Assembly: GCA_016211105.1 (NCBI GenBank) | Contig: JACQSX010000009.1 | Coordinates: forward strand, 1 to 58,451 | DNA: 58,451 nucleotides | From: Acidobacteriota bacterium | GTDB taxonomy: Bacteria; Acidobacteriota; UBA6911; JACQSX01 | Direction: 5' to 3' | In this document: piece by piece, positions 1-58,451 of the stretch | Numbering within the stretch: position 1 is the stretch's first letter | Layout of the letters: each line of letters starts with the position of its first letter | The notes under the pieces: generated by a model | Database searches by the model: none | Told to the model about the DNA's origin: nothing | The model's input: only the letters and a program-made list of their open reading frames with translations | Position numbers and translations under genes: made by a program

Positions 1-375
<375 letters not shown>

Positions 376-14722: not shown

Positions 14723-14887
14723 TGATCCCCCTTGCGGTCGATTGTGGTTGGGCGATTGGGAACGCGCGCAAAACGGCATGGTGCTTCATCGGCAAGTAAG
14801 TGATTCACGACCGATTTTTTATTGGGAGCCATTTCTCAGGCGTATCGCCTAGCTGGGTTAAGAACTCACCTTCTTAGCCGTATTTGT

Positions 14888-16387
14888 TTACCCCGGCGGT
14901 CGGTCCTTGTTCGCTTTTCTTCGCCAACGTAAAATCGGCTGGCGGGCGGCGCGGGTTTCGTCCAACCGGCGCAGTTTCGTCTTGTGAGGCGCCCGCGCTA
15001 GGATCTCCGGGTTCTCTTCCGCTTCCTTTACAATCGCCTTCATTGCGTCTACGAAAGCATCCAGTTCCTGCAGTCCTTCGCTCTCGGTCGGTTCAATCAT
15101 GATAGCGCCCGGCACGATTAAGGGGAAGTAAATGGTAGGGGGATGAAATCCAAAATCCATGAGGCGTTTGGCGATATCAAACGTCTTCACTCCCTTCTTG
15201 ATCTGAAGCTTGTCGGAGAAGACCACTTCGTGCAGAGAGGCCTCAGAATAGGGGAGATCCAACAAGCCTTGCAATCGATGCCGAATATAATTGGCGTTGA
15301 GAACCGCCGTCTCGGAAATCTCCTTCAAACCACTACTCCCACAACTGAGGATGTAGCAAAGGGCGCGGACGTGCATTCCATAGTTTCCCATGAAAGCGCG
15401 CACGCGCCCGATGCTCTTTGGGCGCTGGAAGTCATAGTAGTAAGTGCCGTCCGCGGTTTTTGCCGCCAGCGGTAGCGGCAGAAAAGGTTCCAGCCTGCTA
15501 CTGACAGCGACCGGTCCGGCGCCCGGACCACCGCCGCCGTGAGGAGTGCTGAAAGTCTTATGCAGGTTCAGGTGCATGACGTCGACACCCATCTCGCCGG
15601 GGCGCGTATATCCCATCAAAGCGTTGAAGTTGGCGCCGTCCATGTAGAGCAGCGCATCTTTCTCATGAAGAATGTCTGCGATTTCTCGGATGCGTCGCTC
15701 AAAGATTCCGAGCGTGTTGGGGTTGGTCAACATCAGACACGCCACGGCATCGTTGACAGTGTCTTTGAATCTTTCAAAATCAATGCGCCCATCTGAATTG
15801 GATGGAATCGATTTGACCTGGTATCCGGCGATGGCGGCGCTCGCCGGATTGGTTCCATGTGCGCTGTCCGGGATCAGCACAAATTTCCTCTTCTGATTTT
15901 TTGCATCGTGGTAGGCGTGTACCATCAGAATGCCCGTCAATTCTCCATGAGCTCCCGCCGCCGGCTGCAGGCAGACGGCGGCCATGCCTGTGATTTCTTT
16001 CAGGAGCTGTTGTAACTCGTACTGAATCTGGATATTACCCTGGGCCAGGGATGGATCCTGTAGGGGATGACAGTTTGAAATGCCTGCGAGTCTCCAAACT
16101 TCTTCATTTAGCTTCGGGTTGTACTTCATGGTGCACGATCCAAGCGGGTACATCCCGATATCGATGTGATGGTTCCAGGTGGAAAGGCGGGTAAAATGCC
16201 GCACTACGTCGAATTCAGAAACTTCGGGGAAGTCCTGGATCTCGTCTCGGAGCAGGGCCTCAGTCAAAACAGATTTCGGGTCCGTGTCGGGAACGTCCAG
16301 TGGAGGCAGAGAATAGGCGACTTTGCCCGGCGCCGAGCGTTCAAAAATTAAATCCTCATTGATATTGACGACTGGACGTGTTCGCAT
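14888..16387 (-). CDS. gcvPB: Glycine dehydrogenase (decarboxylating) subunit 2
   Basis: One half of the two-subunit P-protein of the glycine cleavage system. It decarboxylates glycine and passes the aminomethyl group to GcvH. The PLP lysine is in NLHKTFSTPHGGGGPG, preceded by MDGANFNALMGYTRPGEMG (key part DGANFNA). The 499-residue length is normal. Its start lies 40 nt inside the 3' end of gcvPA, typical of tight coupling of this subunit pair. Confidence 0.97.
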   Translation of the reverse strand: MRTRPVVNINEDLIFERSAPGKVAYSLPPLDVPDTDPKSVLTEALLRDEIQDFPEVSEFDVVRHFTRLSTWNHHIDIGMYPLGSCTMKYNPKLNEEVWRLAGISNCHPLQDPSLAQGNIQIQYELQQLLKEITGMAAVCLQPAAGAHGELTGILMVHAYHDAKNQKRKFVLIPDSAHGTNPASAAIAGYQVKSIPSNSDGRIDFERFKDTVNDAVACLMLTNPNTLGIFERRIREIADILHEKDALLYMDGANFNALMGYTRPGEMGVDVMHLNLHKTFSTPHGGGGPGAGPVAVSSRLEPFLPLPLAAKTADGTYYYDFQRPKSIGRVRAFMGNYGMHVRALCYILSCGSSGLKEISETAVLNANYIRHRLQGLLDLPYSEASLHEVVFSDKLQIKKGVKTFDIAKRLMDFGFHPPTIYFPLIVPGAIMIEPTESEGLQELDAFVDAMKAIVKEAEENPEILARAPHKTKLRRLDETRAARQPILRWRRKANKDRPPG

Positions 16388-44975: not shown

Positions 44976-45859
44976 TGAGCGTAAAGAAAATCGGAGTGGC
45001 GGGTGCAGGCACGATGGGGAGTGGCATCGCGCAAACGGCCGCATCTGCCGGTCTAGATACGGTAATACGGGATGTCGATCAGAAATTCCTGGATCGGTCT
45101 CGCCAGGCGATCGAGCATAGCCTGCGTAAACTTTTGGATAAGCAAGATCCGCAAAACGCGCCGACACGGTTCCAAGCAGCGATGGCCCGGATCTATTTTT
45201 CCACAAGCTGGAAGGATCTGGCCGATGTGGATTTTGTCATCGAAGCGGTGAATGAAAACTTCGATGTGAAACGCGAAGTTTTCTCGCAACTGGAACAAAT
45301 CACCCGTCCGGACGTCATTTTGGCCAGCAATACCTCCTCGATCTCCATCACTCGGCTTGCAGCCAGCAGCGGCCGCCGGGATCGCTTCATTGGGATGCAT
45401 TTCATGAATCCTGTTCCCCTGATGAAGCTAGTGGAAATAGTCCGCGGACTGCAGACCTCGGAGGAAACGTTGAACACCACGGGGACGTTGGCAGAAAGGT
45501 TAGGGAAAACACCAGTCGAAGTGAACGATTTTCCGGGCTTTGTTTCCAACCGCTTATTAATTCCGATGCTGAATGAAGCGATGTTCGCGCTTTTTGAGGG
45601 AGTGGGATCGGCTGAGTCTATCGATGCGATAATGGAGTTGGGAATGAATCACCCGATGGGGCCCTTACGGCTTGCGGACTTAATCGGGCTGGACGTGTGT
45701 TTGGATATTCTGAATGTGCTGTATGAGGGGTTTCGAGATCCAAAATACAGGCCCTGTCCGCTGTTGGTGAAAATGGTCGCAGCCGGCTACTTGGGAAAGA
45801 AAAGCGGCCGGGGTTTTTATCAATACGATGCGTCATTCGCAAAAAGCCCACGGAGTTAG
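44972..45859 (+). CDS. 3-hydroxybutyryl-CoA dehydrogenase
   Basis: NAD(P)-dependent reduction of acetoacetyl-CoA. 295 residues from the ATG at 44972: the Rossmann [25 protein letters not shown] [24 protein letters not shown], the catalytic His in GMHFMNPVP, and [14 protein letters not shown]. The start overlaps the thiolase stop (ATGATGA). It is followed by recA after 40 nt. Confidence 0.95.
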
Positions 45860-45899
45860 TTATATCTTTGGAAAGCAGAAATGAAATCCGGGAGAAACC

Positions 45900-46940
45900 A
45901 TGAACGATAAGAGCGCAAAGACACGAGCGATTGAGACCGCGCTGACCCAGATTGAACGCCAGTTCGGCAAGGGCTCGATCATGAAGTTAGGGGATCGACC
46001 AGTGCAGGCCGTGCCGGTAATCTCATCAGGATCGCTTGCGGTAGATGCGGCATTGGGAATCGGTGGCTTTCCGAGAGGGCGTGTAGTCGAGGTTTTTGGT
46101 CCGGAATCCAGCGGAAAAACTACGATCGCATTGCAGGTGATCGCTGAAGCCCAACGCCAGGGGGGTAACGCCGCGTTCATTGATGCCGAACATGCAATGG
46201 ATTCGGGTTACGCTAAGAAACTGGGCGTAAATATCGACGAACTTTTGGTGTCGCAGCCAGACAACGGCGAGCAGGCATTGGAAATTGCCGAAGTCTTGGT
46301 TCGCTCGGGCGCCATTGACGTATTGGTCGTAGACTCGGTGGCCGCACTGGTGCCCAAGGCGGAGCTGGAAGGGGAAATGGGCGATTCGCATATGGGGTTG
46401 CAGGCGCGGCTGATGTCTCAGGCGATGCGGAAGCTGACGGGTATTGTGTCAAAGTCGAATACGTGTTTTATATTCATCAATCAGGTGCGTGAGAAGATTG
46501 GAGTGATGTTTGGTAATCCGGAGACGACCACTGGGGGCCGGGCATTAAAATTTTATGCCTCCATCCGTCTGGAGATCCGCCGGATTGCCTCGCTTAAGGA
46601 AGGTGACCAGATCGTGGGAAATCGCACCAAGATCAAGATTGTGAAAAACAAGTTGGCCCCGCCTTTTCGTGAAGCGGAATTCGATATCCTTTATGGTGAG
46701 GGAATTTCACGAGAAGGGGACCTGCTGGATCTTGGGGTAGAAAAGAAGATCATTGAGAAAAGTGGTAGTTGGTTTTCCTTCAATGGAGAACGCCTGGGCC
46801 AAGGGCGTGAAAATGCGCGCCAGTTTTTGCGGGATAATCCGGAAATTTTCAAGAAGCTAGCGATGCGTCTGCGGGAAACGTTGGGGCTGTCGAAACAAGA
46901 GCTGTCTCCCTCTGCTCCTTCAACAAAGTCATCGCTTTGA
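45900..46940 (+). CDS. recA: Recombinase A
   Basis: DNA strand-exchange protein and SOS co-protease. The 346-residue protein has Walker [10 protein letters not shown], Walker [13 protein letters not shown], the L1/L2 loops ([20 protein letters not shown] and [17 protein letters not shown] regions) and the C-terminal domain. GGGAG lies 6 nt upstream. I see no LexA box in the 40 nt before it, so it may be transcribed with the thiolase pair. Confidence 0.98.
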
Positions 46941-47216
46941 AAGTCATACCTCGGAAGTCACGCTGTTTGCTATGATGGGACGCGATGCGGCGGGAAGAGC
47001 GATTCGAGTGGATTGAAAGACAGATCGAATTCGTGGGCGATCAACAGGGTGAATTCTATGCCGATGGTCATGGAGAAGGTCCCTCCGAAAACTAGTCCGA
47101 TTCAGGCCAAAATCTCCCCCGATTGCAGTGTGGAACAGCGCGGATAGGCGTTTTAAGCTCAAGAATAACCACACTTTCGTGGATCTTGCCTTCTTGGAAT
47201 CAGAGGAAATCTCTTG
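46941..47216. other. Intergenic region after recA
   Basis: About 275 nt. A 36-codon ORF (46985-47095, MRREERFEWIERQIEFVGD...) is present on the plus strand, but I recognise nothing in it and would not call it a gene. No terminator of recA is clear. Confidence 0.4.
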
Positions 47217-47972
47217 ATGGCTGGCTTCATACTCATCATTATCGCTGGATTTGCGGCCGGGTTTGTGAATGCGATGGCTGGGGGTGGCTCGTTGCTTAGC
47301 TTTCCTGCTTTGCTTTTCGGTGGAAGGTCAGCCGTCGTTGCAAATGCGACCAACACGGTGGCTCTCTGGCCGGGATCACTCGCCAGTGTTTGGGCCTACC
47401 GTCCGCACATTTTGGCCAGGCGTGACCAAGCCATCGCTCTGGCGACGCCCTCCGTGATTGGAGGGCTCTTGGGGTCAATATTACTTATTCACACACCCGA
47501 GAGAGCCTTTCGCGTCATTGTTCCATACCTCATCTTGCTCGCTTGCGTGTTGCTTCTGGCGCAGGGTCCCGTTGCGCAGTGGGTTGCCCAAAGAACAACC
47601 GTGACTTCAAGGAGAACGCCCCCATTCCTGTGGGTGATCCAGTTTCTCATTTCAATTTATGGTGGCTATTTTGGAGCGGGGATTGGCATCCTCATGCTTG
47701 CTGCGATGGCGATATTCCTGCCTGAGGATCTGCAGTATGCGAATGCATTGAAGGTTCTTTTCGCAATGCTTATCAATGGCATTGCAATGCTTTATTTTAT
47801 TGTTGTCGGAGCGGTGGATCTTGTGGCCGCGGGGATTATGGCTGGCGCCTCGCTGGTGGGCGGGTACGCAGGCGCCCACGCCGCGCAACGGATCTCTCCG
47901 AGGCTGCTTCGCGCTCTGGTTGTGGGTTTCGGTCTACTCGTGGCTCTGCGGTTGCTGAGTACTACGGAGTGA
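47217..47972 (+). CDS. TauE/SafE (TSUP) family transporter
   Basis: A 251-residue membrane protein with the two repeats of the TSUP family: AGFAAGFVNAMAGGGSLLSFPALL near the N-terminus and IQFLISIYGGYFGAGIGILMLA in the second half. About eight hydrophobic segments are visible. Members move sulfite, sulfonates or related anions. The substrate is not set by the context. It overlaps the VanZ-like gene region. Confidence 0.9.
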   Translation: MAGFILIIIAGFAAGFVNAMAGGGSLLSFPALLFGGRSAVVANATNTVALWPGSLASVWAYRPHILARRDQAIALATPSVIGGLLGSILLIHTPERAFRVIVPYLILLACVLLLAQGPVAQWVAQRTTVTSRRTPPFLWVIQFLISIYGGYFGAGIGILMLAAMAIFLPEDLQYANALKVLFAMLINGIAMLYFIVVGAVDLVAAGIMAGASLVGGYAGAHAAQRISPRLLRALVVGFGLLVALRLLSTTE

Positions 47973-47977
47973 TGACA

Positions 47978-48571
47978 ATGAAACGAGGAATTTTTTCATC
48001 TCCGGTGAAGGCATGGATCGCGGTTGCGCTTTACACGCTCTTGTTGTACAGCACTCTCACGCTTGCTTATGACGTTTATGTGGCGATGCTGAATCGACTG
48101 GGGAAGGTGCTCTTTAACCTGATGACATGGATGTATCTGCCGATCGGGTTGGCATTGTTCGCCTTCCTGGTTTTTTTTCTTCCACGGCGACTTGCTTCTT
48201 ATCTCAGTTTTCTCTTCATTTGCCTGGCGCTCGCTTATTCCCTGGAATTTCTGACCGTTCCCGCAAAACGCTTCCACTTTTTCCAATACGGGCCTCTTAC
48301 TGTGCTCGTTTTTGATGCCTTACGTTTTAAGTGCCGCGATCGCTACCTCTACGTGTGGACCTTGACAACAGTCGCTCTGATCGGCGTGGGTGATGAAACT
48401 TTACAAGGTTTGCTGCCCAAGCGTCATTTTGGATTGGTGGACCTGGTTGTTAATTCGGTGGCGGGGTTGCTGACGCTTGCCTTCATCGGGTTTGTGATGC
48501 GAGAAGAGAACTATCCGTGGGGACGCCTTACACGCGAGAAGACTCGAAGGGACGAGATTCCCCGCGCCTAA
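47978..48571 (+). CDS. VanZ-like membrane protein
   Basis: A 197-residue membrane protein from the ATG at 47978, which has GGAG 8 nt upstream; ATG 47972 and GTG 47969 are alternatives. The FHFFQYGPLTVLVFDAL and GVGDETLQGLLPKRHFGLVDLVVNSVAGLL stretches match the VanZ-like fold, with the conserved E/Q and F-x-D pattern. VanZ-like proteins affect envelope drug tolerance in some bacteria, but most have no known role. It is translated right after the TauE/SafE gene. Confidence 0.75.
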   Translation: MKRGIFSSPVKAWIAVALYTLLLYSTLTLAYDVYVAMLNRLGKVLFNLMTWMYLPIGLALFAFLVFFLPRRLASYLSFLFICLALAYSLEFLTVPAKRFHFFQYGPLTVLVFDALRFKCRDRYLYVWTLTTVALIGVGDETLQGLLPKRHFGLVDLVVNSVAGLLTLAFIGFVMREENYPWGRLTREKTRRDEIPRA

Positions 48572-48645
48572 GTACCTCGATTCATAAATACGGTGACGTT
48601 TGCTGATGGCACCAGTCGAGAATCTTTAAGGGTTCAACGCCAGAA

Positions 48646-49332
48646 ATGCTGAAAAGATACGTTTCGAGCTTCATTCCGTGGTGCATGGGAGCTTCTATTT
48701 TTGTCGCCCAGATGGATATGCGACCGAAAGCAGCCGTATCTCCGGAAGAGCAAGGACCTGTCCAAGCCACTGGCAGTCCGTCGCGTGGAGGTTCTCAGGT
48801 TCAGGCTGACAAAGACCACCGGCCCAAGGCCGGAACACCCGGAATTAGGATTGGGAAGCAATCAGGGGATGCGGGGAGTGTAATCTTGGTTCCCGTCAAT
48901 TTCGCTCCCAGCCCGGACGTGCAGTGGGCAGCGCTAGATCTGGAGGTCTCCTATCCCGCGGCTGTTTTGGAGTTCGTAGAGGTGCAAAAGGCCAAGAAGG
49001 TCACGACTGAGAAGAAACTGCAAACTGGGAGTGAGAACGGCTTTGGCAAAGTGAAAATTCGAGTGAGTCCACCCTCCGCCAGCGGGTTGTTCCCTGCCGG
49101 AGTGATTGCGTTTCTGGTGTTTAGAATCAAGGAGAATGCTGCGCCTGGTAAGGTTCGGGTGGCGGCGTCGGCCAGAATCCATGTGACGCAAAGTCTTTCC
49201 TCCCCGCAGGAACAGTTGCATGCGGTTGATGGGTTGGTGGAGGTTCTTCCTCCGCGGCTCGAAGACATCGACAAGAGCGGGATGAATAACCTGAATCCTT
49301 ATGTATCGGCCTGCTTTTTTTACATGCACTAG
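48646..49332 (+). CDS. Cohesin-domain secreted protein
   Basis: A 228-residue protein with a hydrophobic N-terminal segment (weak signal peptide). After a low-complexity linker (~residues 30-75) comes a cohesin-like beta domain: SVILVPVNFAPSPDVQWAALDLEVSYPAAVLEFVEV, then SGLFPAGVIAFLVFRIKENA. Cohesin-like domains bind dockerins in cellulosomes, but in non-cellulolytic bacteria they serve other secreted proteins. No dockerin gene is visible here. It is the last core gene before the island. Confidence 0.65.
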   Translation: MLKRYVSSFIPWCMGASIFVAQMDMRPKAAVSPEEQGPVQATGSPSRGGSQVQADKDHRPKAGTPGIRIGKQSGDAGSVILVPVNFAPSPDVQWAALDLEVSYPAAVLEFVEVQKAKKVTTEKKLQTGSENGFGKVKIRVSPPSASGLFPAGVIAFLVFRIKENAAPGKVRVAASARIHVTQSLSSPQEQLHAVDGLVEVLPPRLEDIDKSGMNNLNPYVSACFFYMH

Positions 49333-49359
49333 CGGCAGGCGCGTAAGTCTTTTAGAATC

Positions 49360-49404
49360 TGGTGGAGACGAAGGGATTCGAACCCTCGACCTTCCGAATG
49401 CGAG
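49360..49404 (-). other. 3' fragment of a tRNA gene, best read as tRNA-Ala(CGC): left attachment site of the island
   Basis: Minus strand, from the anticodon loop to CCA: loop CTCGCAT (anticodon CGC), stem TCGGA, variable loop AGGTC, T-arm GAGGG-TTCGAAT-CCCTT, acceptor strand CGTCTCC, A73 and encoded CCA. Position 70 is T, which fits a G3-U70 pair, the alanine identity element. The 5' half (acceptor strand, D-arm, 5' anticodon stem) is missing, so this is not a working tRNA. Such displaced 3' ends mark integration of islands; the intact tRNA should lie beyond the window's right edge. Confidence 0.7.
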
Positions 49405-49436
49405 TGAGTTCCGGGGCCAAACGCCCCGGCTCACTC
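49402..49436. repeat. 14-bp hairpin fused to the tRNA fragment
   Basis: GAGTGAG + CCGGGGC pairs with GCCCCGG + CTCACTC (two unpaired T on one side, 5-nt loop CAAAC). Its left arm overlaps the last bases of the tRNA fragment. No T run follows on either strand. It could be part of the recombination site or a termination structure at the island edge. Confidence 0.6.
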
Positions 49437-49761
49437 CTGACAACGCTTTAGGCTGAAGCAAGCATCCAGACTGCATTTCACGCGATTATGCCGTTTGTGG
49501 GAGTTATGCCGATGTCAGCGAAAAGCAGGCGATTGTGACGACAAAAGTAACACAAAAACTGACACAGTGGTTAAAAGGCAACATGGGGTACTTGCATTTT
49601 CTTAAAACAAAAATTGCCTTTAAGTCGGAGTCCCGTTCCTCACAGAGTCCGCGAGGAATATCTCTTCTGTGTCGATGTTCGGTTCTTCTTCCTTCTTGAC
49701 ATGTCACCAGTACCAGTTTTTAAATTAATCATCCATTTCCGGCTGAAGGAGGTCAACGCAC
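49437..49761. other. Island left-end non-coding region
   Basis: No gene recognised in about 325 nt. It contains two direct TTATGCCG motifs (49486-49493 and 49504-49511), listed separately. The remainder is AT-richer than the core genome. GAAGGAGGTC just before 49762 is the ribosome-binding site of the next gene. Confidence 0.5.
49486..49512. repeat. Paired TTATGCCG motifs, left copy
   Basis: GATTATGCCG and AGTTATGCCGA in direct orientation, 18 nt apart. The same doublet lies at 58317-58341 at the island's other end, with 17-nt spacing. Two direct core motifs at this spacing resemble arm or core sites of a tyrosine recombinase, but that is inference. Confidence 0.5.
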
Positions 49762-50841
49762 ATGCGCAACATGCGCAAACCTCAATTTTTTAGGCAAGCT
49801 TTTACAAGGCGATACCGGTTTATGCTACCAGTGGTGTGCTGGTTGATCATCGGTTTGCTAATGGGTGGGGCCAAGGTGATGTCAGAGGAACCACGGTTTG
49901 TGGTTTGCTATTTCGACATCGCCTCGAACAAATTCATCGAAAACTGGTGGTCAGGCAATATGCTGCAATGGTGGAAAGATTCTCAGAAGAAGCCTGGTTC
50001 CAAACTTTCGGCGCGAATGGTTCGCTCAATTGCTGAAGCCGATTTCATAGTTATATGGATCGACGCCACGAATTCAGCAACAGTCACTTACACGATTCCT
50101 GTTCAACACCCTATCACGGCGAACGTTAACGTGTTAGGTCCTGGGGGGCTTGGCACAGTGTACGGAACAGTAACGACGAACGAGCAGAGGTCCATGCGGC
50201 TCAATAGTTGGCAAGTTACAGCCAGCGTCCATCTTGCATCAGACGGCAAATTACTTTTCACGCAAACAAAAATCGGAAAGTGGAGGTGGAGCAAACCGGA
50301 TAAAGATGTGCTCCTTGGAGCGCTTAACTTTATTAGCACCAATGGGAAATCTCTCCTTTCAAAACAGTCCGCCGTAGTCAAAGCAGCGGAAGCCTCTAAT
50401 GCTGAAGGAGTCGGCGATACGGTCCAGAACCAAGCGCCCGACCTTCTGCAACGGCCCCAGCATTGGCAGGGCCCACCTCCGCTGCCTCTGCCCACGCCAC
50501 CTCTGCCCCTGACTATCCTGAGTCTAATGAATAAGGGTAGTAAGGCGGATGTAGAAAAACTGTTGGGCGCTCCCAAGAAGATGTTAGGAAACCAGACATT
50601 TGAGTATGAGGACTCTTCGAGAAACTGGGAATGCTATCGCATCAGCTTCGGCGAGAATCAGAAAGTTAGGGCAGTGTTTCTTGTTCCATTTCGCATGACG
50701 GAAAATCAAGCCTTGAAAACGTTCACTGGGACTTGGGAAAGGGTGGCTGTAGGCGATTATCAGTCCATCTATACTTTCCGCTCAGATCGCATCCGCATTC
50801 ACGTTGATGACGGCTTGGTTACAGAGATCGAATACTATTGA
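49762..50841 (+). CDS. Uncharacterised exported protein of the island
   Basis: A 359-residue protein I do not recognise. It has a basic start and a hydrophobic segment (~residues 21-37, LPVVCWLIIGLLMGGA) that may be a signal or anchor, then a beta-rich domain (EEPRFVVCYFDIASNKFIENWW), a Pro-rich linker (~236-250, PPPLPLPTPPLPL) and a C-terminal domain (LLGAPKKMLGNQTFEYEDSS...). A strong GAAGGAGG ribosome-binding site precedes the ATG. Function unknown. Confidence 0.7.
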   Translation: MRNMRKPQFFRQAFTRRYRFMLPVVCWLIIGLLMGGAKVMSEEPRFVVCYFDIASNKFIENWWSGNMLQWWKDSQKKPGSKLSARMVRSIAEADFIVIWIDATNSATVTYTIPVQHPITANVNVLGPGGLGTVYGTVTTNEQRSMRLNSWQVTASVHLASDGKLLFTQTKIGKWRWSKPDKDVLLGALNFISTNGKSLLSKQSAVVKAAEASNAEGVGDTVQNQAPDLLQRPQHWQGPPPLPLPTPPLPLTILSLMNKGSKADVEKLLGAPKKMLGNQTFEYEDSSRNWECYRISFGENQKVRAVFLVPFRMTENQALKTFTGTWERVAVGDYQSIYTFRSDRIRIHVDDGLVTEIEYY

Positions 50842-51096
50842 CTGTCAGTAAGGACAAACGTTGATACGATCAGCGGAACTGCAAAACGGACCAAATCAAC
50901 AAGTGTCAGACCGGTATATACGGGCATCTGCTCACGCGCTGGTTAATCCCATCGCTTAGGATTTCGCCATGCAAGTTTATTATTTTCAATCGCTTAACTG
51001 AGGTTAAGCAAGGGTTAAGGTAGATTAACTTCCGCTGACACCTGCCGAAGTCCCCTTACGGACGTTGAGTCTCCAGGAATTGTCGTTAGTCGCCCG
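50842..51096. other. Convergent spacer with a short inverted repeat
   Basis: About 255 nt between two convergent genes. GCTTAAC-TGAG-GTTAAGC (50992-51009) is a perfect 7-bp inverted repeat, and GGTTAA-type motifs recur up to ~51030. No gene and no clear T-run terminator are seen. Confidence 0.45.
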
Positions 51097-51588
51097 TCAT
51101 CTATACGATGATGATGTTACGGTAGAGAGAGAACCATCGAATTTTACTTTGATGCTTTCGCTCCCACGTGGGCCCTCTGACAACGTAATGTCCACTTCGT
51201 GAGTTCCGCTAATCCCTACCTTGGAGGCCCGCGCAATGAGGGCTGCTACCACCTCTGGATGCAGCGCTGGGCTCCCAAGGAGCCAAGAATAGGAGAGTAC
51301 GAAACAGGGATTTGTCTTCTTGGTCGCAACTCGCACAATGCCCAGTTTGTCGAGGAACGCGTATTGGTCATATCCAACAAACATTGATTCCTCCTTCCTA
51401 AAGTCCAGCTCTTCAAAAAATCCACCTAAGTTTGCTTCTGTGCCATTCTCGATAGCCGCTCTTGCAAGTAGGCAGACTTTGTGAGCTTCTAAATAGGCGT
51501 TTTTGGAAGTAACCTTTTGGGCATTGCTCAAAGATGTCGCAACAAACGTGATGACAAAAAGCGCCGCACTGATTTTTTTCTTTCTCAT
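51097..51588 (-). CDS. Small exported protein of unknown function
   Basis: 163 residues from the ATG at 51588 (MRKKKISAALFVITF), with GGAGG about 10 nt upstream; a GTG at 51612 would add eight residues. A clear signal peptide ends near SLSNAQ. The mature part (~residues 25-163) has two cysteines that could form a disulphide and is otherwise unrecognised. No neighbour points to a role. Confidence 0.65.
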   Translation of the reverse strand: MRKKKISAALFVITFVATSLSNAQKVTSKNAYLEAHKVCLLARAAIENGTEANLGGFFEELDFRKEESMFVGYDQYAFLDKLGIVRVATKKTNPCFVLSYSWLLGSPALHPEVVAALIARASKVGISGTHEVDITLSEGPRGSESIKVKFDGSLSTVTSSSYR

Positions 51589-51770
51589 TGTTTTCTTTCC
51601 TCCATTGTGCACTCCACTACAGGACCATGACTGAGCGTCTCTGCGCGAATCGTGACTGTGGGATGCGCTTCATTTTAGGAGCCAGGCTTTCCGCTGCTGT
51701 GGCCTGACTCCAATTGTTCGTGCTTTTAGACGAGCGTGGCAGAGAAATAGGTTCAGGACATTTTTAATGT

Positions 51771-51799
51771 TTGCTACGATATTCCATATCTGTTATATT
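51771..51799 (+). promoter_or_regulatory. Promoter of the higB remnant/higA pair
   Basis: TTGCTA (51771-51776), 17-nt spacer, TATATT (51794-51799). Two direct ATATTCC motifs (51779-51785 and 51795-51801) bracket the spacer and -10, and a GATAT-TCC-ATATC repeat lies inside. This is the arrangement expected of an autoregulated toxin-antitoxin operon. Confidence 0.55.
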
Positions 51800-51810
51800 C
51801 CACGTTAGGA

Positions 51811-51978
51811 ATGTGGGAAGTTGAGTACACGGACACATTTGAGGAGTGGTGGAACAGCCTTTCAACGGAGGAACAGGAGGACGTAGCAGCAGAGGTGATG
51901 CTGTTGGAGTTAATTGGACCGGCTCTTCGGCGTCCACACTCAGACGTAATCGCCTCGTCGGAAGGAGAGTTTGATTGA
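51811..51978 (+). pseudogene. HigB/RelE-like toxin, truncated
   Basis: A 55-residue ORF (MWEVEYTDTFEEWWNSLS..., RPHSDVIASS) that matches the N-terminal half of phage-derived Gp49-like/HigB toxins, normally about 110 residues. The catalytic C-terminal half is gone, and the frame ends with EGEFD and a TGA next to the antitoxin start. The join suggests an internal deletion, not a simple stop. It could not be an active ribonuclease. It sits directly before the HigA-like gene in the usual toxin-first order. Confidence 0.75.
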
Positions 51979-51980
51979 CG

Positions 51981-52307
51981 ATGGCTAAGAAATTCAGGAC
52001 TTTACTTGAGAAAATGCCGACCGATGCCCGTGCACGAGCGGAGGCCAAGGCAAAGAAGGTGATTGAAGAGATGCCTTTGGATGAATTGCGGCTAGCACGT
52101 GATTTAACTCAGGAGCATCTGGCCAAGATCCTTGGCGTAAAACAGTCAGCGATCTCCAAACTGGAACGGCGGACAGATATGTACGTGAGTACCCTGCAAG
52201 ACATGATCAAGGCAATGGGCGGAACGTTGGAAATCAGAGCCGTTTTTCCAGAAGGGACCGTTCAAATAAACCAGTTTGGTAGGCTTCGTCAGCGCAGGAC
52301 GGTCTAA
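51981..52307 (+). CDS. HigA-like XRE-family antitoxin
   Basis: 108 residues from the ATG at 51981, with GGAGAG about 10 nt upstream. The helix-turn-helix is in LTQEHLAKILGVKQSAISKLERRTDMYVSTLQDMI, typical of HigA-type antitoxins that bind their own promoter. A TTG 6 nt upstream overlaps the toxin stop. With the toxin broken it may persist as an orphan repressor. Confidence 0.85.
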   Translation: MAKKFRTLLEKMPTDARARAEAKAKKVIEEMPLDELRLARDLTQEHLAKILGVKQSAISKLERRTDMYVSTLQDMIKAMGGTLEIRAVFPEGTVQINQFGRLRQRRTV

Positions 52308-52429
52308 CCGGGAGTCCTGAAATCCCGTTTCCCCCGGCACATGAAGGTTAAGTTCTCAACGGGGGAAGTGACCCCACCTGAGCAACAACACCGTCTGCCA
52401 GGGGGTTCGCACAAATTAGAAAAGGGCAT
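52308..52429. other. Short spacer before the island's ATPase module
   Basis: About 120 nt with a small CGGGA...TCCCG hairpin near 52312-52330. AAAAGGG precedes the next ATG. No promoter is clear. Confidence 0.35.
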
Positions 52430-53254
52430 ATGCCAACACCACGTGGCCTTCTCGCGGGAGTGACTGATTACACAGCGGTGTCTCTTGAAGACATTGTGCA
52501 ACACCTCAAGGAGTGGTTATCCAACACAGCGGATGCAATCGCCGCTCTGCGGAAGTCTGTGCTGTTGGCCGAACAAAAGGCCGACATCCTGCCCAGGGAT
52601 ATCATTCCCACGTTCTTGAATCCTTGGATGAAACTGTTCGAGTCGTACCACGCTGAATTTCAGCGCTTAATCGAGGAACTCCCCCGTGGGGTCAGACGGA
52701 GCCACGTGAATGCGGTTCGCCAGCTCTATAAGCGAAGTCAGGCGGAGGAGCTGGCATGCCAATATTTCATCGATTCGTACATGAAAGAGTTTCGGAAAAA
52801 CGATGAAGCCCGGCAACTGGCCGAGCGCATCGACCGGGAGGCCCGCAATCAATTTATCGATTATCGTGACCTCAACGGTGTTGCTGGGCGACTGCATGCC
52901 TTGGTAGGGACCACAATCCAGGAGCAGCCATCATCAAGTCAGGCTGACGGGAAGAAGTTGATTGGTGGTCTCACGGTAGTGCGAAGAGCAGTTTATGAGG
53001 ATTTTAAGAGAGGCGGTCGGTACGCTGGAGATCTCAACAAAGCTGTTTTCAGACTACAAGAGTCTGGCCACAAAATTACGGATCGGCTTCAGGATAGAAT
53101 CGAAGAGAAATTCAAAAAGCGCCCCGAGACTTGGAGGGACGCTGCCAGAATTGGCCCCGCCATTTTCAAGCGCTGGCTCCACGACGGCCAATTTTCCCCA
53201 TTTTTCCCCACCCCGCTTTTTGGCCGCAACACAAAGATAACTAAAGTCCAATAG
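52430..53254 (+). CDS. Helical protein of unknown function, first gene of an ATPase module
   Basis: A 274-residue protein I do not recognise. It is mostly alpha-helical (SLEDIVQHLKEWLSNTADAIAAL, LFESYHAEFQRLIEEL, EARQLAERIDREARNQF), with a basic C-terminus that suggests nucleic-acid or membrane contact. It lies 43 nt before the 81-residue gene and its ATPase, in the same direction, so it is probably their partner. Confidence 0.6.
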   Translation: MPTPRGLLAGVTDYTAVSLEDIVQHLKEWLSNTADAIAALRKSVLLAEQKADILPRDIIPTFLNPWMKLFESYHAEFQRLIEELPRGVRRSHVNAVRQLYKRSQAEELACQYFIDSYMKEFRKNDEARQLAERIDREARNQFIDYRDLNGVAGRLHALVGTTIQEQPSSSQADGKKLIGGLTVVRRAVYEDFKRGGRYAGDLNKAVFRLQESGHKITDRLQDRIEEKFKKRPETWRDAARIGPAIFKRWLHDGQFSPFFPTPLFGRNTKITKVQ

Positions 53255-53269
53255 GTTCGCCGTGTTGGG

Positions 53270-53291
53270 ATTTTCTCAAAAAAGAGAAAAT
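53270..53291 (+). promoter_or_regulatory. Perfect hairpin directly before the 81-residue gene
   Basis: ATTTTCTC-AAAAAA-GAGAAAAT, an 8-bp inverted repeat with a six-A loop, ends 6 nt before the ATG at 53298. It could be an operator for a module repressor or an mRNA hairpin that limits translation of the 81-residue protein. Confidence 0.5.
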
Positions 53292-53297
53292 GTCTTT

Positions 53298-53543
53298 ATG
53301 AACAAAAAAACCTTCAACAACCGAATACACTTCAAAGTACGTGCCCGCGCCGCTTCACGCGGCAAGTGGCCCTTTCTTTACTGCCCTCCAGATGGATTCT
53401 GGAGCCTAGTTTATCATCCATTTCGAGACTTCTTACCATCGAGGAATGCGGCTGCAAACTGCTTTCGCGAATGGCGGCTCATTGAGGAGCTGGCAAAGCG
53501 CATGCCGAGCGGAATAGCTCAGCGGCTGGGGAGGTCGGCATGA
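53298..53543 (+). CDS. 81-residue basic protein coupled to the ATPase
   Basis: 81 residues from the ATG at 53298 (MNKKTFNNRIHFKVRARAAS); the frame is open back to 53262. It is rich in Arg, Phe and Trp and has no domain I know. It overlaps the ATPase start by 4 nt (ATGA), which argues that it is real and made together with the ATPase. Its partner may be the ATPase. Confidence 0.6.
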   Translation: MNKKTFNNRIHFKVRARAASRGKWPFLYCPPDGFWSLVYHPFRDFLPSRNAAANCFREWRLIEELAKRMPSGIAQRLGRSA

Positions 53544-54820
53544 CCATTCTGCGGATACCCAAGCTGTTGAGGTCCGTTCTTGGCAAACCCGCCGCTGAGG
53601 CACCGGTTCCGCCATCCGGCTCAAATTCTCAGGCAGAGGACCCCTTCGCAGCACCAAATGAACTGCTCAACCAGTGGTTCTACAAGCCGGATTTGCAGGC
53701 TATGCGAATTGTACTGGGCACCATCAAGGCTCACTATCTGGATGTCGGTGATCCTCCATGGCTCTTTGTCGTGGCTCCTCCGGGAACTGGAAAAACAACC
53801 ATGAGCATCATGTCTGCTTGCGGTCTACCCGAGGTAATCCAATTAGGAGACCTTAGCGAAAACACGTTTCTCAGCGGGTTCTATCAACACAAAACACCTG
53901 GACTGCTTGAGAAGCTTGGACCAGTTCAACAGAATAGCGATACCTTTATCACAAATGGCAACGCCATTATTTTGGTCAAAGATTTCACCACCGTCCTGTC
54001 CATGCGGCGCGAGAAGCGGGGCGTAATTCTGAGTCAATTGCGAGAAATCCATGATGGGGAATTTAAGAGGGACTTTGGAACCGGTGAGACTAAGATTTGG
54101 AGGGGACGAGTTACTGTAATTGCTGCCGTTACTCCCGTGCTCGATAGACACTACTCCATTTTCTCAACTCTTGGCGAACGCTTCCTTCAAGTTCGCTGGC
54201 GCCGGCCAGACTCCCCCGAAGCAGGTGAGTGGGCCATCCGGCAACAAGGGCACGAGTCGGAAATCCAAAGATTGTGTAAAGGTGTAATCACGACATTGTT
54301 CCAGCAATCCACGAGCACAGCCCCCTTGCTGGCTGACGGCATGGTGAGACGGATTGCTGCCATTGCGGAGGTTGTCTCGTTGTCTAGAACCCACGTTTTT
54401 CGCAACAGCTATGGTGATCGTGAAATTGAGTATGTTCCCGAGGCAGAGGCAAACACTCGCATCTCGAAGGGGCTGGCAGCCATCGCCAGGGGTATTGCGG
54501 CTCTCAATCACCGGGAAAAAGTCACCGAGGAAGACCTACAAGATGCCTTCCGGGTCGCGCTCGACTGCATACCCGATTCAAGGCGTCAGGTATTGGTGGC
54601 CACTATTGCGGGCAAGGCCATCGACTCGCTTCCTCTGCCCCGCACAGTCAGAGAGCGCGCGATAGAGGAACTGCGGGAGCTACGTCTCCTCACCAAGGAC
54701 TCGCCTCCGAAACTTACCGATTCCGTTGCCTCACTCCGGGCAACGGCTCAACTCTGCCCCGATCTGTTCGGGACAGGGGATGAGGCATTGTCCAGAAGTG
54801 TCCGGGATGGATCTATATGA
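53540..54820 (+). CDS. AAA-type ATPase of the island, function unknown
   Basis: A 426-residue ATPase. Walker A is APPGTGKTT (residues 79-87) and the Walker B candidate is AIILVKDFT (142-150), with an Asp-Phe in place of the usual Asp-Glu. Sensor-like VTVIAAVTP and an arginine-rich FSTLGERFLQVRWRR follow, then helices and a winged-helix-like end. The N-terminal ~45 residues are a basic, disordered leader. The frame stays open after the TGA for about 170 codons, without clear homology. Possible roles: replication, transfer or defence of the element. Confidence 0.75.
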   Translation: MTILRIPKLLRSVLGKPAAEAPVPPSGSNSQAEDPFAAPNELLNQWFYKPDLQAMRIVLGTIKAHYLDVGDPPWLFVVAPPGTGKTTMSIMSACGLPEVIQLGDLSENTFLSGFYQHKTPGLLEKLGPVQQNSDTFITNGNAIILVKDFTTVLSMRREKRGVILSQLREIHDGEFKRDFGTGETKIWRGRVTVIAAVTPVLDRHYSIFSTLGERFLQVRWRRPDSPEAGEWAIRQQGHESEIQRLCKGVITTLFQQSTSTAPLLADGMVRRIAAIAEVVSLSRTHVFRNSYGDREIEYVPEAEANTRISKGLAAIARGIAALNHREKVTEEDLQDAFRVALDCIPDSRRQVLVATIAGKAIDSLPLPRTVRERAIEELRELRLLTKDSPPKLTDSVASLRATAQLCPDLFGTGDEALSRSVRDGSI

Positions 54821-54853
54821 CTAAACACTATTTGTCCCGATGTGTCCGGGATG
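54799..54853. repeat. Direct repeat TGTCCGGGATGGA
   Basis: The 13-nt sequence occurs at 54799-54811 and 54841-54853, 42 bp apart, with a partial copy TTGTCCCGA (54832-54840) between. It straddles the ATPase stop codon. Two copies spaced by four helical turns could be an operator or an iteron-like site; it could also come from a local duplication. Confidence 0.45.
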
Positions 54854-55129
54854 GACATATTGAAAGAAAAAGAGAGCTATACCGCTAGGGCGAACACTTT
54901 GGGGCATCACAACACAGCCAATATGTCCTCGCTCGAACGCTTCACATTCTCGCTGTGGGGCCGTTTATGGGAACGACAGGCTACCGCCTTCGGCGGTTCA
55001 GCAACCCTTACTGCACCAAGTCCTGGCTCTGACTTGGCCGTGTCAACCAGGGGGAACGACGCAGTGGGGACTGGGCCGTGGAGTCAGAGGGGCCTGTCGC
55101 ACCCTCCAAGGAGAACTGAGGAAATCAAT
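54854..55129. other. Region without a clear gene
   Basis: About 275 nt. It is open in the same frame as the ATPase, but no protein features are seen. It should hold the promoter of the ribbon-helix-helix gene, but I see no clear -35/-10 pair. Confidence 0.4.
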
Positions 55130-55330
55130 ATGACGACAGAAGAATTACAACTTATGGCAAACAGCGGAAGAACCACCGGTGATTACCGCACCTGCAGAGT
55201 TGAAACTTGGTTGACCACCGATGAACGCGGCTTTCTACGGGCTGTGGCCACAAAGCAAAGGAAGAGCATGTCCGCAGTGTTGCGCCACCTGCTGAATGAA
55301 TACGCTCGCCGAGTACTGCCGCATGAGTGA
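55130..55330 (+). CDS. Ribbon-helix-helix (CopG/Arc-like) DNA-binding protein
   Basis: 66 residues from the ATG at 55130, with GAGG 8 nt upstream. The stretch TCRVETWLTTDERGFLRAVATKQRKSMSAVLRHLLNEYARRVL has the strand-helix-helix pattern of CopG/Arc repressors. It overlaps the excisionase-like gene (ATGAGTGA), so the two are co-translated. A likely repressor of the element's own genes. Confidence 0.65.
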   Translation: MTTEELQLMANSGRTTGDYRTCRVETWLTTDERGFLRAVATKQRKSMSAVLRHLLNEYARRVLPHE

Positions 55331-55550
55331 TAAGCATTTGCTCACAGTGAGCGACGTGGCCGAAATGCTCAGCGTCAAGTCATCTACCATATACGAATGG
55401 GCACGGATGGGCTACATCCCTTCCATTCGTCTAGGGACAGGTAGCGAGAAACCGCGTGTACGTTTCGATAGGATCGAAATTCAACAGTAGCTTGACCAGC
55501 GCAAGAGGGCAGGACGAGCAACACGTTTGCCTGAAAAAGCTGTCGCATAG
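55323..55550 (+). pseudogene. Excisionase/MerR-type helix-turn-helix gene with an in-frame amber codon
   Basis: MSDKHLLTVSDVAEMLSVKSSTIYEWARMGYIPSIRLG is a HTH_17/excisionase domain. The frame meets TAG at 55488-55490 after RIEIQQ, where homologs usually have Trp. It then stays open for 19 codons (LDQRKRAGRATRLPEKAVA) to a normal stop at 55548-55550. So a TGG to TAG change has probably cut a ~75-residue protein to 55 residues. The truncated form may still bind DNA. Confidence 0.7.
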
Positions 55551-55634
55551 TCATATCTCGGCGTGGCAAGCAAAGAGGGACCCTTACTGGGCGGTAAGTG
55601 CTTGGGCAGGTTGTTGAAGCTGTCAACTTTACAC

Positions 55635-55669
55635 TTGACTTCGTCAGAAAAATGATTATAATTTCTGAC
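55635..55669 (+). promoter_or_regulatory. AbiE promoter overlapped by a perfect inverted repeat; leaderless start
   Basis: TTGACT (55635-55640), 16-nt spacer, TATAAT (55657-55662). The inverted repeat GTCAGAAA / TTTCTGAC (55643-55650 and 55662-55669, 11-nt spacer) covers the spacer and -10. The ATG of the antitoxin gene follows at 55670, so the transcript would start at or 1-2 nt from the ATG. AbiEi antitoxins are known to repress their own promoter through inverted repeats. Confidence 0.75.
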
Positions 55670-56263
55670 ATGACTGAACACATTCTAAAGAGACCTAAAG
55701 GGGAACTGTTTACTGCCCGTGAATTTCTCGGCCTAGGAACGCGTGCAGCCGTGGATCAGGCATTATCGCGCCTAGCCAAGTCAGGTCTGATTGTGCGTGT
55801 GACGCGTGGGGTCTATATGCGGCCAAAGGAGAGTCCTTACGTCGGCACAATTATGCCAGAACCGTTCAAGATTGCTGAGGCAGTCGTCAAAGCATCTGGC
55901 GCAACAGTTCAGATAAACGGTGCTGGAGCTGCCCTGCGTCTTGGATTAACCACGCAAGTACCTACCCAACCGGTGTTTTATACAGACGGCCCAAGTAGGC
56001 GGCTTCAGATGGGAAAATTACAAATCGTCCTCAGACGTGTAAGCCCACGGAAGTTAGAGTTGGGAAATAGACCAGCCGGCCTAGCGCTTCTTGCATTGTG
56101 GTATTTGGGTAAGAACGAGGTGACCCCTGCGGTCATCGGAAGTATTCGAAAGAAGCTGCGACCTAAGGAATTCAAAGAATTGAAATCTGCTACGAATGTC
56201 ATGCCAGGATGGATGGCTGACACCTTCCTCCAATACATTCGTGCTGGTGCGCAACATGCCTGA
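55670..56263 (+). CDS. AbiEi-type antitoxin (transcriptional repressor)
   Basis: 197 residues from the ATG at 55670 (MTEHILKRPKGELFTAREFLGLGTRAAVDQALSRLAKSG). The N-terminal winged helix binds DNA. The C-terminal domain neutralises the toxin AbiEii in the type IV toxin-antitoxin system. Features such as GVYMRPKESPYVG and GNRPAGLALLALWYLG fit AbiEi/DUF6088-type antitoxins. It overlaps the toxin gene by 8 nt. The promoter overlaps a perfect inverted repeat. Confidence 0.85.
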   Translation: MTEHILKRPKGELFTAREFLGLGTRAAVDQALSRLAKSGLIVRVTRGVYMRPKESPYVGTIMPEPFKIAEAVVKASGATVQINGAGAALRLGLTTQVPTQPVFYTDGPSRRLQMGKLQIVLRRVSPRKLELGNRPAGLALLALWYLGKNEVTPAVIGSIRKKLRPKEFKELKSATNVMPGWMADTFLQYIRAGAQHA

Positions 56264-57299
56264 AGCATTTCTTCAACTTCCGCGCAAGCGCCAGAAAGAA
56301 ATTCTTGCAACGGTTGCTTCACAAATTGGACTTTCGCCGACCGCTTTGGAGAAAGATGTTTGGTTATGTTGGGTTATCCAGCATCTCTTTGTCACGCCTC
56401 GCCGCTTACCCATGGCCTTAAAGGGGGGCACGTCACTTTCTAAGGTATATGAAGTCATCCATCGATTTTCTGAGGACGTTGATATCACACTGGATTATCG
56501 GACTCTCAATGACGGATTTGATCCGTTCTCGCCAGAGGCATCGGGACAGAAGCGGAGGAAATTTAGAGACCAGTTAGATGCTGGTGTCTTACGCCATGTC
56601 CAGGAGATAGTGTTACCGCATTTCCAAGGCGTTATTGAGAATGAGATTGGAAGCGAGGAATTTACTCTCGAAGTGGGACAGGATAAAAAGGGCGTAACCC
56701 TCAGCCTATCGTACCCTTCTGTACTCGACGAGGCCAGCAGCTATATCAAGAGTCAGGTGCGAGTGGAATTCGGCGGTAGCAATGTCACCGAACCGAGTCG
56801 TGAGTTTGCCATACGTCCATACGTCGCAACCCATTTACCGGCGTTAAGCTTTCCGGAAGCTTCCCCAATTGTGCTCTCCTGCGCAAGGACATTTTGGGAA
56901 AAGGCTACGCTGATACATATGCAATGCAACCGATCTCAGTTGAATCGTAAGGTGGAGCACTTGTCTCGGCACTGGTACGATCTGGCGATGCTCGCAGACC
57001 ATCGCTTAGGAGTTCAGGCGCTAGCTGAAAGATCTCTGTTCCAGGATGTCGTGAAACATAAAAAAGCCTTCTTCTCTAGTAGCTACGCCAACTATGATGA
57101 CTGTCTCAATGGTAAGCTCCGGTTGCTGCCAGACGAAGGGATGCTGAGGGAGCTTAGGACCGACTTCCAGGAGATGTTATCGGCAGGTATGTACTACGGA
57201 ACCCCACCCTTATTTAATAACGTGATAGAGAAACTGAGAACTCTGGAGCGTCAGATCAACTCGACTGAATCTGGAACAACTCTCGCTCCCGCCCCGTAG
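56256..57299 (+). CDS. AbiEii/AbiGii-type nucleotidyltransferase toxin
   Basis: 347 residues from the ATG at 56256; the frame is open to 56196. The catalytic motifs of the nucleotidyltransferase fold are present: LEKDVWLCWV (31-40), GGTSLSKVY (57-65) and the metal-binding SEDVDI (72-77), then Arg/Asp-rich helices. AbiEii gives phage defence by abortive infection or growth arrest and also stabilises plasmids and islands. All key residues look intact, so this pair is probably active. Confidence 0.88.
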   Translation: MPEAFLQLPRKRQKEILATVASQIGLSPTALEKDVWLCWVIQHLFVTPRRLPMALKGGTSLSKVYEVIHRFSEDVDITLDYRTLNDGFDPFSPEASGQKRRKFRDQLDAGVLRHVQEIVLPHFQGVIENEIGSEEFTLEVGQDKKGVTLSLSYPSVLDEASSYIKSQVRVEFGGSNVTEPSREFAIRPYVATHLPALSFPEASPIVLSCARTFWEKATLIHMQCNRSQLNRKVEHLSRHWYDLAMLADHRLGVQALAERSLFQDVVKHKKAFFSSSYANYDDCLNGKLRLLPDEGMLRELRTDFQEMLSAGMYYGTPPLFNNVIEKLRTLERQINSTESGTTLAPAP

Positions 57300-57399
57300 C
57301 ACGGTGGGAAAGGGGGGATCTGACACCGCCACGATTGGCCGAACTAGCGGCTGAGTGCCTGCTGTTGCAGTCAAAAACCAAAAGGAGGAAGAAAGGTGT

Positions 57400-58350
57400 A
57401 TGACAGCCAAGAAATCATCAGACAGGGGCCTGTTCAGGCGCACGGACTCGCCACACTGGTGGATACGCTACTCGGACAAAAACGGGCACATCCGCCGTGA
57501 GAGCACGGGCACAAGTGAGAAGAAGCTGGCCCGTGAGATTCTGGCCAAGAAGCATGTGTTGGTGGCAGAGAATCGGCACCTGGACATCAAGAGAATCCCG
57601 AAGTGTACTTTCTCTGAGTTGTGTGACCGCTACTGGAAGACAGACGGCCAGCACAAACGGATGCACGGACTGGAGGGAATGCTGAAGACTCTTAAACAGC
57701 GCTTCGGATCGCTCCAGCTTATTGAAATCAGCACAGAAAAGGTGGAGCGATTTCTGAGCCATCGGGTAGAGGTTGACAAAGTGTCGCCCGCTACTCGGAA
57801 TCGGGATCGAGCCATTTTGAGCATTCTCTTTAACAAGGCGATCAGGTGGGAATTGCTGGAAGCAAACCCTGTCAAGCCAGTCCAAAAGTTCAAAGAAAAC
57901 AACAAGCGGACTCGATTCCTGGATAGGAATGAGATCGAGCGCCTGCTTACCGCCTGCGAGCCGAAGCCAAAAGATTACAAGAAGGCAAAGCGTGAGAAAC
58001 GCCAGCTTAAGAACCTTGTTTTGATGGCCCTGAATACCGGGATGCGCCGCCAGGAGATTTTTAACCTGAGATGGGAGGATATAGACTTCCGAAACCGCCT
58101 GATCAAGGTTGTGGAATCCAAAAGCGGAAAATCTCGATTCATTCCCATCAACGGCTCAGTGGAAGCTGTGCTTAAGACTCTGCCTTCCAGGTTTAAGAAG
58201 GGACTGGTTTTTCCATCCCTGGTTACAAGCAGCAGGATCACGGATCTGAAGAAATCCTTCCACACCGCCTTGATGGAAGCGAAGATCACCAACTTTACTT
58301 TCCATGATCTGCGACATCATGCCGACTCCCCGATTATGCCGACTCCATGA
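57400..58350 (+). pseudogene. Tyrosine site-specific integrase, truncated at its 3' end
   Basis: A 316-residue frame from the ATG at 57400 (MTAKKSSDRGLFRRTDSPHWW), with AAAGGAGG-like bases upstream. The N-terminal SAM-like and catalytic domains hold Arg216 (TGMRRQEI), Lys244 (SGKSRFIPI) and His302-x-x-Arg305 (FHDLRHH). The second catalytic His/Trp and the tyrosine nucleophile are missing: right after HDLRHH the frame runs into ATGCCGACTCC sequence that belongs to another element. It should be inactive. This was probably the integrase of the island. Confidence 0.8.
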
Positions 58351-58402
58351 CGCGGACCACAGCAGGGGAGGCGCTCGGGTTGCATTCAGAGTCGGCATAA
58401 TC
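58317..58402. mobile_element. End of a second mobile element, with TTATGCCG sites, that interrupts the integrase
   Basis: TCATGCCGACTCC (58317-58329) and TTATGCCGACTCC (58334-58346) lie in direct order, and GATTATGCCGAC (58332-58343) is repeated in perfect inverted orientation at 58391-58402. The integrase homology ends at the first copy. A minus-strand gene ends inside the inverted copy. This looks like the terminus of an inserted recombinase-type element whose body lies beyond the window. Confidence 0.6.
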
Positions 58403-58451
58403 AGAGGCTCTCCAAGAAGGCCAACAGCTTGTCGTCGGGCCGGTAACGTCC
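58401..58451 (-). CDS. C-terminus of a gene running off the window, possibly a recombinase
   Basis: The last 17 codons of a minus-strand frame, reading GRYRPDDKLLAFLESL then TGA. The stop codon lies in the inverted TTATGCCG motif. Such C-termini occur, as far as I recall, in tyrosine recombinases of recombinase-cluster elements, but 16 residues cannot prove it. The rest lies beyond the window. Confidence 0.5.
   Translation of the reverse strand, partial: GRYRPDDKLLAFLESL

Follow-up and report, generated by a model that had tools for sequence, protein, structure and literature searches.

The window considered here is the whole 58 451-nt contig JACQSX010000009.1 of the Acidobacteriota bacterium assembly GCA_016211105.1 (contig C47 of genome G000, 3.5 Mb in 52 contigs). 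Three open reading frames (ORFs), encoding 274, 81 and 426 amino acids, lie on its + strand between positions 52430 and 54820, and the last two are joined by an ATGA overlap (53540-53543), as a preliminary description of the sequence had stated; the third gene, however, ends at 54820 and not at 54853. It encodes an AAA+ ATPase (P0003) which is the conserved core of integrase-bearing islands and of phage replication modules. We propose, with a probability of about two in three, that this ATPase is a replication helicase with an adjacent origin, i.e. the element's own MCM-like initiator helicase.

An ATPase family with a predicted MCM-type motor

The predicted structure of P0003 has an MCM-type AAA+ motor fold, with fold matches to MCM rings, and a C-terminal winged helix is also predicted. 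Strand pairs are placed where MCM proteins have the pre-sensor-1 hairpin and the helix-2 insert, while only some 30 low-confidence residues, and no N-terminal MCM domain, precede the AAA+ part of the model. Walker A is intact (GTGKT), as had been reported. In the phage relative of locus L050 (457-2808), this P-loop contains an intein with a LAGLIDADG homing endonuclease.

The Walker B place had been called degenerate. It does read KDF, whereas MCM proteins have DEF, with a D-E pair, but decay can be rejected: in an alignment of 89 sequences, the window's protein included, KDF is found in 83, KDL in 2, KDM in 2, ADF in 1 and SDF in 1, and the D is present in 89 of 89. The alignment (A2) combines P0003 with 66 of the 119 other listed proteins and 22 locus rows; loci L015, L050, L051, L053, L054, L065, L067, L072 and L073 are outside it.

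At the sequence level, no MCM model appeared among the Pfam matches of P0003 (E <= 1) or of the 89 aligned sequences (E <= 0.01). NCBIfam gave nothing below E 0.02, PHROGs no family (three stray matches among the 89 sequences), the PDB weak sequence matches only (best E 0.042 for P0003 and 0.0066 for the profile), and Foldseek no match at E <= 0.001 for the C-terminal piece; tblastn found no relatives in plasmid and phage collections. One relative, P0103, carries an HTH_17 (excisionase-type) domain according to precomputed Pfam annotation. Word searches of the open-licence literature retrieved no paper recognisable as describing the family. A search of 5.8 billion proteins returned at least 442 matches, the window's own protein included, a lower bound obtained by scoring the 7998 candidates with the most shared words.

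Chromosomal matches turn up sporadically, in 7 of 396 genomes of a phylum sample and 4 of 38 of a class sample, both counting the window's own genome, and in 7/399, 2/41 and 6/257 of other sets, with some overlap among these sets. Fourteen distinct chromosomal loci were considered (the window, L001, L002, L012-L017, L065-L067, L072 and L073), leaving out the weak partial matches L060, L061, L070 and L071, as well as duplicates (L055 and L064 are the L002 contig; L004, L010, L029, L030, L033 and others repeat known loci). A recombinase, identified by Pfam in each case, is present in the fetched stretch of 12 of the 14. It is a tyrosine integrase in the window, L001, L002, L012, L013, L015, L016, L066, L067, L072 and L073 (the hidden Markov model (HMM) used had been trained on six of the loci, and every integrase was confirmed by Pfam), and a serine recombinase in L065. 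The other two stretches are cut short, the L014 contig starting just before the ATPase gene and the L017 contig ending inside it. In 8 of the 14 loci the integrase lies directly next to a tRNA gene, overlapping it or at most 50 nt away (Ala, Leu, Arg, Glu, three times Pro and one called SeC). For the window, this tRNA is the one on contig C26, with its end inside the attachment (att) repeat. The fetched stretches of L001, L014, L017, L065, L067 and L073 yielded no tRNA gene. In L065 (70-4240), the ATPase relative and the serine recombinase stand before what reads as a ComM/Mg-chelatase-like frame, a different integration strategy.

Viral contigs scanned with a profile yielded 22 loci with 25-40% identity, the near-identical L040 and L041 being both counted. 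In 11 of them a Toprim/CHC2 primase is encoded upstream, at distances from a 7-nt overlap to a 727-nt gap, or in the same polypeptide (L053 and L054); further frames intervene in L048, and a 52-aa frame does so in L040 and L041. It should be noted that L040, L041 and L046-L049 formed the training set of the primase HMM and match it by construction, and that Pfam recognizes the primase above its curated cut-off in L046 and L053 and below it in L054, the other loci depending on the HMM. In L043 and L045, the gene overlapping the ATPase gene start is instead an archaeo-eukaryotic-type primase. The ATPase of L051 has an N-terminal extension which by eye looks like a prim-pol, its sole match being a weak one to a phage helicase family. 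Some viral loci also contain genes for DNA polymerase A, a superfamily 2 (SF2) helicase, a PD-(D/E)XK exonuclease or a RecU-like resolvase.

These neighbourhoods bear on whether the ATPase is itself the unwinding motor. As an initiator or helicase loader of the DnaA/DnaC kind, it would melt the adjacent origin and recruit the host DnaB. The changed Walker B pair would suit such a role, as would an island without a recognized primase, in which host factors would serve. L011 and L034-L037, the phage loci whose ATPases are nearest to the window's protein, have exonuclease and weakly Sak4-like genes but also lack a recognized primase beside the ATPase, and this weighs against the helicase proposal. 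On the other side, the single-chain primase fusions and the fold matches to MCM rings fit a motor, and so does the absence of DnaB from all 18 of the 22 viral records that were searched (14 of 14 controls were detected, although several records are fragments). We regard the loader role as possible but unlikely.

Another role to be considered is in excision, copy control or recombination of the island, the repeats described below being an operator or a recombination-control site. The recombinases near the ATPase in 12 of 14 chromosomal loci, the HTH_17 proteins nearby or fused (P0103), and the exonuclease, weakly Sak4-like and resolvase-like genes among the phage neighbours are all in line with this. 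However, primases of two unrelated classes adjoin the ATPase, and integrase-like frames occur in just 4 of the 22 viral stretches, which makes this role quite improbable compared with that of a replication helicase.

Repeats beside the ATPase gene

In our reading, a site close to TGTCCCGAAGTGTTCGG occurs four times around the 3' end of the window's ATPase gene, three times in direct and once in inverted orientation. The same site, inverted, stands 19-72 nt 3' of the stop codon in L001, L002, L065 and the window, and a shared 12-, 15- or 18-mer as good was obtained in none of 200 dinucleotide-shuffled sets. When each of the four loci was scanned with a matrix built from the remaining three, the top-scoring site was the inverted one in all four cases (window bases 45001-58451 being scanned, and the sites having been chosen by the motif). 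Second copies ranked 4th in L001 and 2nd in L065, while the window's three further sites fell between 3rd and 6th. The motif was first spotted by eye, and its choice was not blind. The sites within 54753-54820 also encode part of the ATPase tail (SRSVRDG), and it may be the DNA of this stretch, not its amino acids, that is kept.

The window's repeat sequence was also sought in nine chromosomal loci of more distant relatives. Only in L012 was the highest-scoring site close to the ATPase; elsewhere the site there was not the best one. In more distant relatives the letters of the repeat differ, and the layout, an inverted repeat beside the gene, recurs. Under a single scoring scheme, with thresholds fixed after a first pass, inverted repeats scoring 13 or more were found at 9 of 33 ATPase gene ends versus 2 of 228 control ends, taken from other long ORFs of the same loci (Fisher p 1.3e-7), and those scoring 10 or more at 15 of 33 versus 14 of 228 (p 3.2e-8); a threshold-free comparison of the scores gave a Mann-Whitney p of 4.7e-9. 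The 33 loci omit L017, where the gene is cut off, L040 and L054, while the controls were mechanically picked ORFs of at least 150 aa, at most eight per locus and not all real genes. One of the two control matches, in L049, belongs to the end of the primase gene that immediately precedes the ATPase. Among the loci whose flank had not been printed before the first pass, the count was 5 of 20 (p 3.9e-5).

In three loci (L041, L048 and L049), repeats scoring 15-19 were found 5' of the ATPase gene and none 3' (30 starts scanned, L065 and L014 being omitted and L013 too short). Overall, a strong repeat stands beside the ATPase gene in 12 of the 33 loci, and none was found in the other 21. The repeat arms are 25-106 nt apart, with 32-62 nt in 9 of the 12, and the A+T content of the spacer exceeds that of its own locus in 13 of the 16 tabulated loci.

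The island and the other genes of the window

The preliminary description had placed the three genes in an island. This was borne out, and the island can now be described more precisely as an integrative element with att repeats that include a tRNA end. The 74-bp att segment has two genomic copies, identical at 74 of 74 positions, one in the window (49331-49404, - strand) and one on another contig (G000:C26:14519-14592), where a matching tyrosine-integrase-like C-terminal frame runs up to the repeat, beside the tRNA. The island shows two features of a tRNA-targeting integrative element, direct att repeats with a tRNA end and an integrase at one end. Both the window (58321-58451) and the end of C26 (about 14815-14951) contain an inserted sequence, possibly an insertion sequence (IS) element, in which the inverted repeat GATTATGCCGACTC is present. 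The simplest reading is a single island that extends from 49331 as far as the C26 tRNA, an insertion having later split its integrase; the gene order across the two contig ends would follow from this. A search for the empty attachment site in 20 other genomes gave short matching stretches only, many of them tRNA. No primase was recognized among the scanned ORFs of the window. At its opposite end, the contig starts inside a 16S rRNA gene (window 1-375, - strand; Rfam RF00177).

Features of the island, with positions in the window
Feature	Position	Strand	Remarks
Left attachment repeat	49331..49404	-	perfect 74-bp copy; tRNA-Ala(CGC) 3' part and next 29 nt
359-aa ORF	49762..50841	+	taken as cargo; no Pfam match; coding by codon score
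171-aa ORF	51097..51612	-	taken as cargo; near the island's left end
Xre/HTH_37 regulator ('HigA')	51975..52307	+	likely the element's repressor
274-aa protein	52430..53254	+	no known relatives; variable slot 5' of ATPase; coding by codon score
Hairpin	53270..53291		perfect 8-bp, A+T-rich; not beyond chance
81-aa frame	53298..53543	+	no relatives found; coding signal doubtful; ATGA overlap with ATPase
MCM-like AAA+ ATPase P0003	53540..54820	+	426 aa; predicted initiator helicase
Walker A APPGTGKT	53774..53797	+	residues 79-86; K85 invariant
Walker B place K147-D148-F149	53978..53986	+	family signature
Iteron-like site 1	54753..54773	+	inside ATPase frame
Iteron-like site 2	54787..54807	+	inside ATPase frame
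Iteron-like site 3	54831..54851	+	directly 3' of stop codon
Perfect 10-nt inverted repeat	54853-54862 / 54919-54928		flanks candidate origin
Iteron-like site 4	54888..54908	-	inverted; motif common to L001, L002, L065
66-aa ORF	55130..55330	+	ribbon-helix-helix look by eye; no PHROGs match
HTH_17 protein	55296..55490	+	predicted excisionase/AlpA-type regulator
AbiEi antitoxin	55598..56263	+	taken as cargo
AbiEii toxin	56196..57299	+	taken as cargo
Tyrosine integrase	57355..58350	+	Phage_integrase E 5.6e-22; C-terminus lost to insertion at ~58320
End of inserted repeated sequence	58321..58451		inverted repeats; splits integrase, ends contig

The three genes had also been regarded as a possible module, a claim that is not supported. 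In the search of 5.8 billion proteins, which relies on shared 5-residue words and from which very distant relatives may escape, the 274-aa protein matched only itself and the 81-aa frame matched nothing. The former has a coding-like codon score (+0.143), while the latter scores -0.148 in its own frame and higher, -0.068, in another. The slot 5' of the ATPase is occupied by a 450-aa protein in L001, by an HTH_17-like gene (by reading) in L002, by a CHC2 primase-like gene in L072, and in L012 by a 310-aa protein together with a 148-aa 'replication initiation protein' (1287-1733; phrog_154, E 1.6e-14). Because no relative of either neighbour was found and different genes fill the slot in the relatives examined, the trio is not a unit, and the conserved trio was rejected; what is kept is the ATPase. 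Conservation of the ATPase alone is an outcome that the preliminary description had itself named as counting against a module.

The hairpin noted before the small gene (ATTTTCTC-AAAAAA-GAGAAAAT, six bases 5' of the ATG of the 81-aa frame) is real and perfect, but such a fold can be expected by chance (z -1.59; equalled by 12 of 200 shuffles of the 81-nt stretch containing it), and it was rejected as a signal. The 81-aa frame is also doubtful as a gene.

Anti-phage genes had been pointed out in the island as well. AbiEi and AbiEii are indeed present, but the supposed HigA is an HTH_37/HTH_3 regulator, and in the ORF list the interval 51612-51975 lacks any + strand frame as long as 60 aa that might be a HigB ahead of it. 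These Abi genes, like the unrecognized ORFs, are taken to be cargo. Their sharing of the island would be the argument for an anti-phage module, in which the ATPase and its neighbours sense or block phages. Against it, the neighbours are not conserved, the homologues of the ATPase sit in phage replication regions, and the PADLOC matches are all weak (mad8 for P0003, E 0.0062 over residues 62-94; best of any of the 89 aligned sequences, E 3e-4), none being credible. A defence system was rejected on this basis, and the defensive role guessed for the ATPase, left with no real support, appears very improbable.

Proposed function and known systems

The other earlier guess, a role in replication, is well supported for the ATPase by the MCM-like model, by the primase neighbours and fusions in phages, and by the adjacent inverted repeats. 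If the ATPase is indeed the helicase of the element, it would bind, through its C-terminal winged helix, the repeated sites at the end of its own gene, and open the A+T-rich DNA there; assembled as a ring, it would then unwind the excised circle so that the island can be copied. Because no primase is recognized in the window's island, priming might be provided by the host DnaG or by an unrecognized protein, perhaps the 274-aa one.

More broadly, we lean slightly towards the idea of a portable replicator, that is, a new MCM-like family of bacterial helicases, each with its own origin beside the gene, passed between phages and tRNA islands. The layout of the origin (an inverted repeat with arms mostly 32-62 nt apart) would be kept, while its letters would shift by lineage together with the winged helix. 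Since bacterial chromosomes are replicated without MCM helicases, according to a published survey (PMC5862659), an MCM-like family that is common among bacterial islands and phages would, if confirmed, be a further way for mobile DNA to replicate. It would also provide a compact pair of helicase and origin open to testing, a marker with which a class of small islands could be found in under-studied bacteria, and a natural experiment in how origins and initiators change jointly.

That survey mentions MCM-like proteins in phages and bacterial plasmids, and treats uncharacterized ATPases replacing known helicases beside primases as predicted helicases (PMC5862659). P0003 resembles MCM helicases in its predicted motor fold and in its family's association with primases, and differs from them in the lack of a Pfam MCM match and of the N-terminal MCM domain, and in the KDF at Walker B. 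The predicted helicases of mobile genetic elements of the DUF3987, DUF927 and VirE types are similar in being ATPases in the place of the helicase beside primases (PMC5862659). However, only 1 of the 89 aligned sequences touches the DUF3987 model (E 0.0047), and models of these types are otherwise absent among the matches.

The staphylococcal cassette chromosome (SCC), with its helicase operons (Cch; CCPol-MP-Cch2), is likewise a chromosomal island with a gene for a replication helicase. The Cch protein has been placed close to MCM, and Cch2 is reported to bind, with its C-terminal domain, and to unwind a putative origin that directly follows its gene (PMC7581432). Nevertheless, the DUF927 and D5-type models give no match to P0003, and no polymerase gene is recognized in the window's island. 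Moreover, SCC elements use Ccr recombinases, which are of the serine type, and one fixed site, whereas the window's island has a tyrosine integrase and tRNA sites.

A similar plan is reported for the Rep helicases of the Staphylococcus aureus pathogenicity islands (SaPI), whose C-terminal domain recognizes an iteron origin directly downstream of the gene (PMC7581432), and the origins of Gram-negative phage-inducible chromosomal islands (PICI) are described as an A+T-rich region between two sets of iterons (PMC6092414). Compared with their pri-rep-ori arrangement, the window has repeats in the corresponding place, behind the ATPase gene, as a candidate origin, but its ATPase is not matched by known models and no primase is recognized; in the relative L072, a primase-like gene does stand before the ATPase. 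The element of the window fits the known plan of a helicase with an adjacent origin, with a protein that no tested model names.
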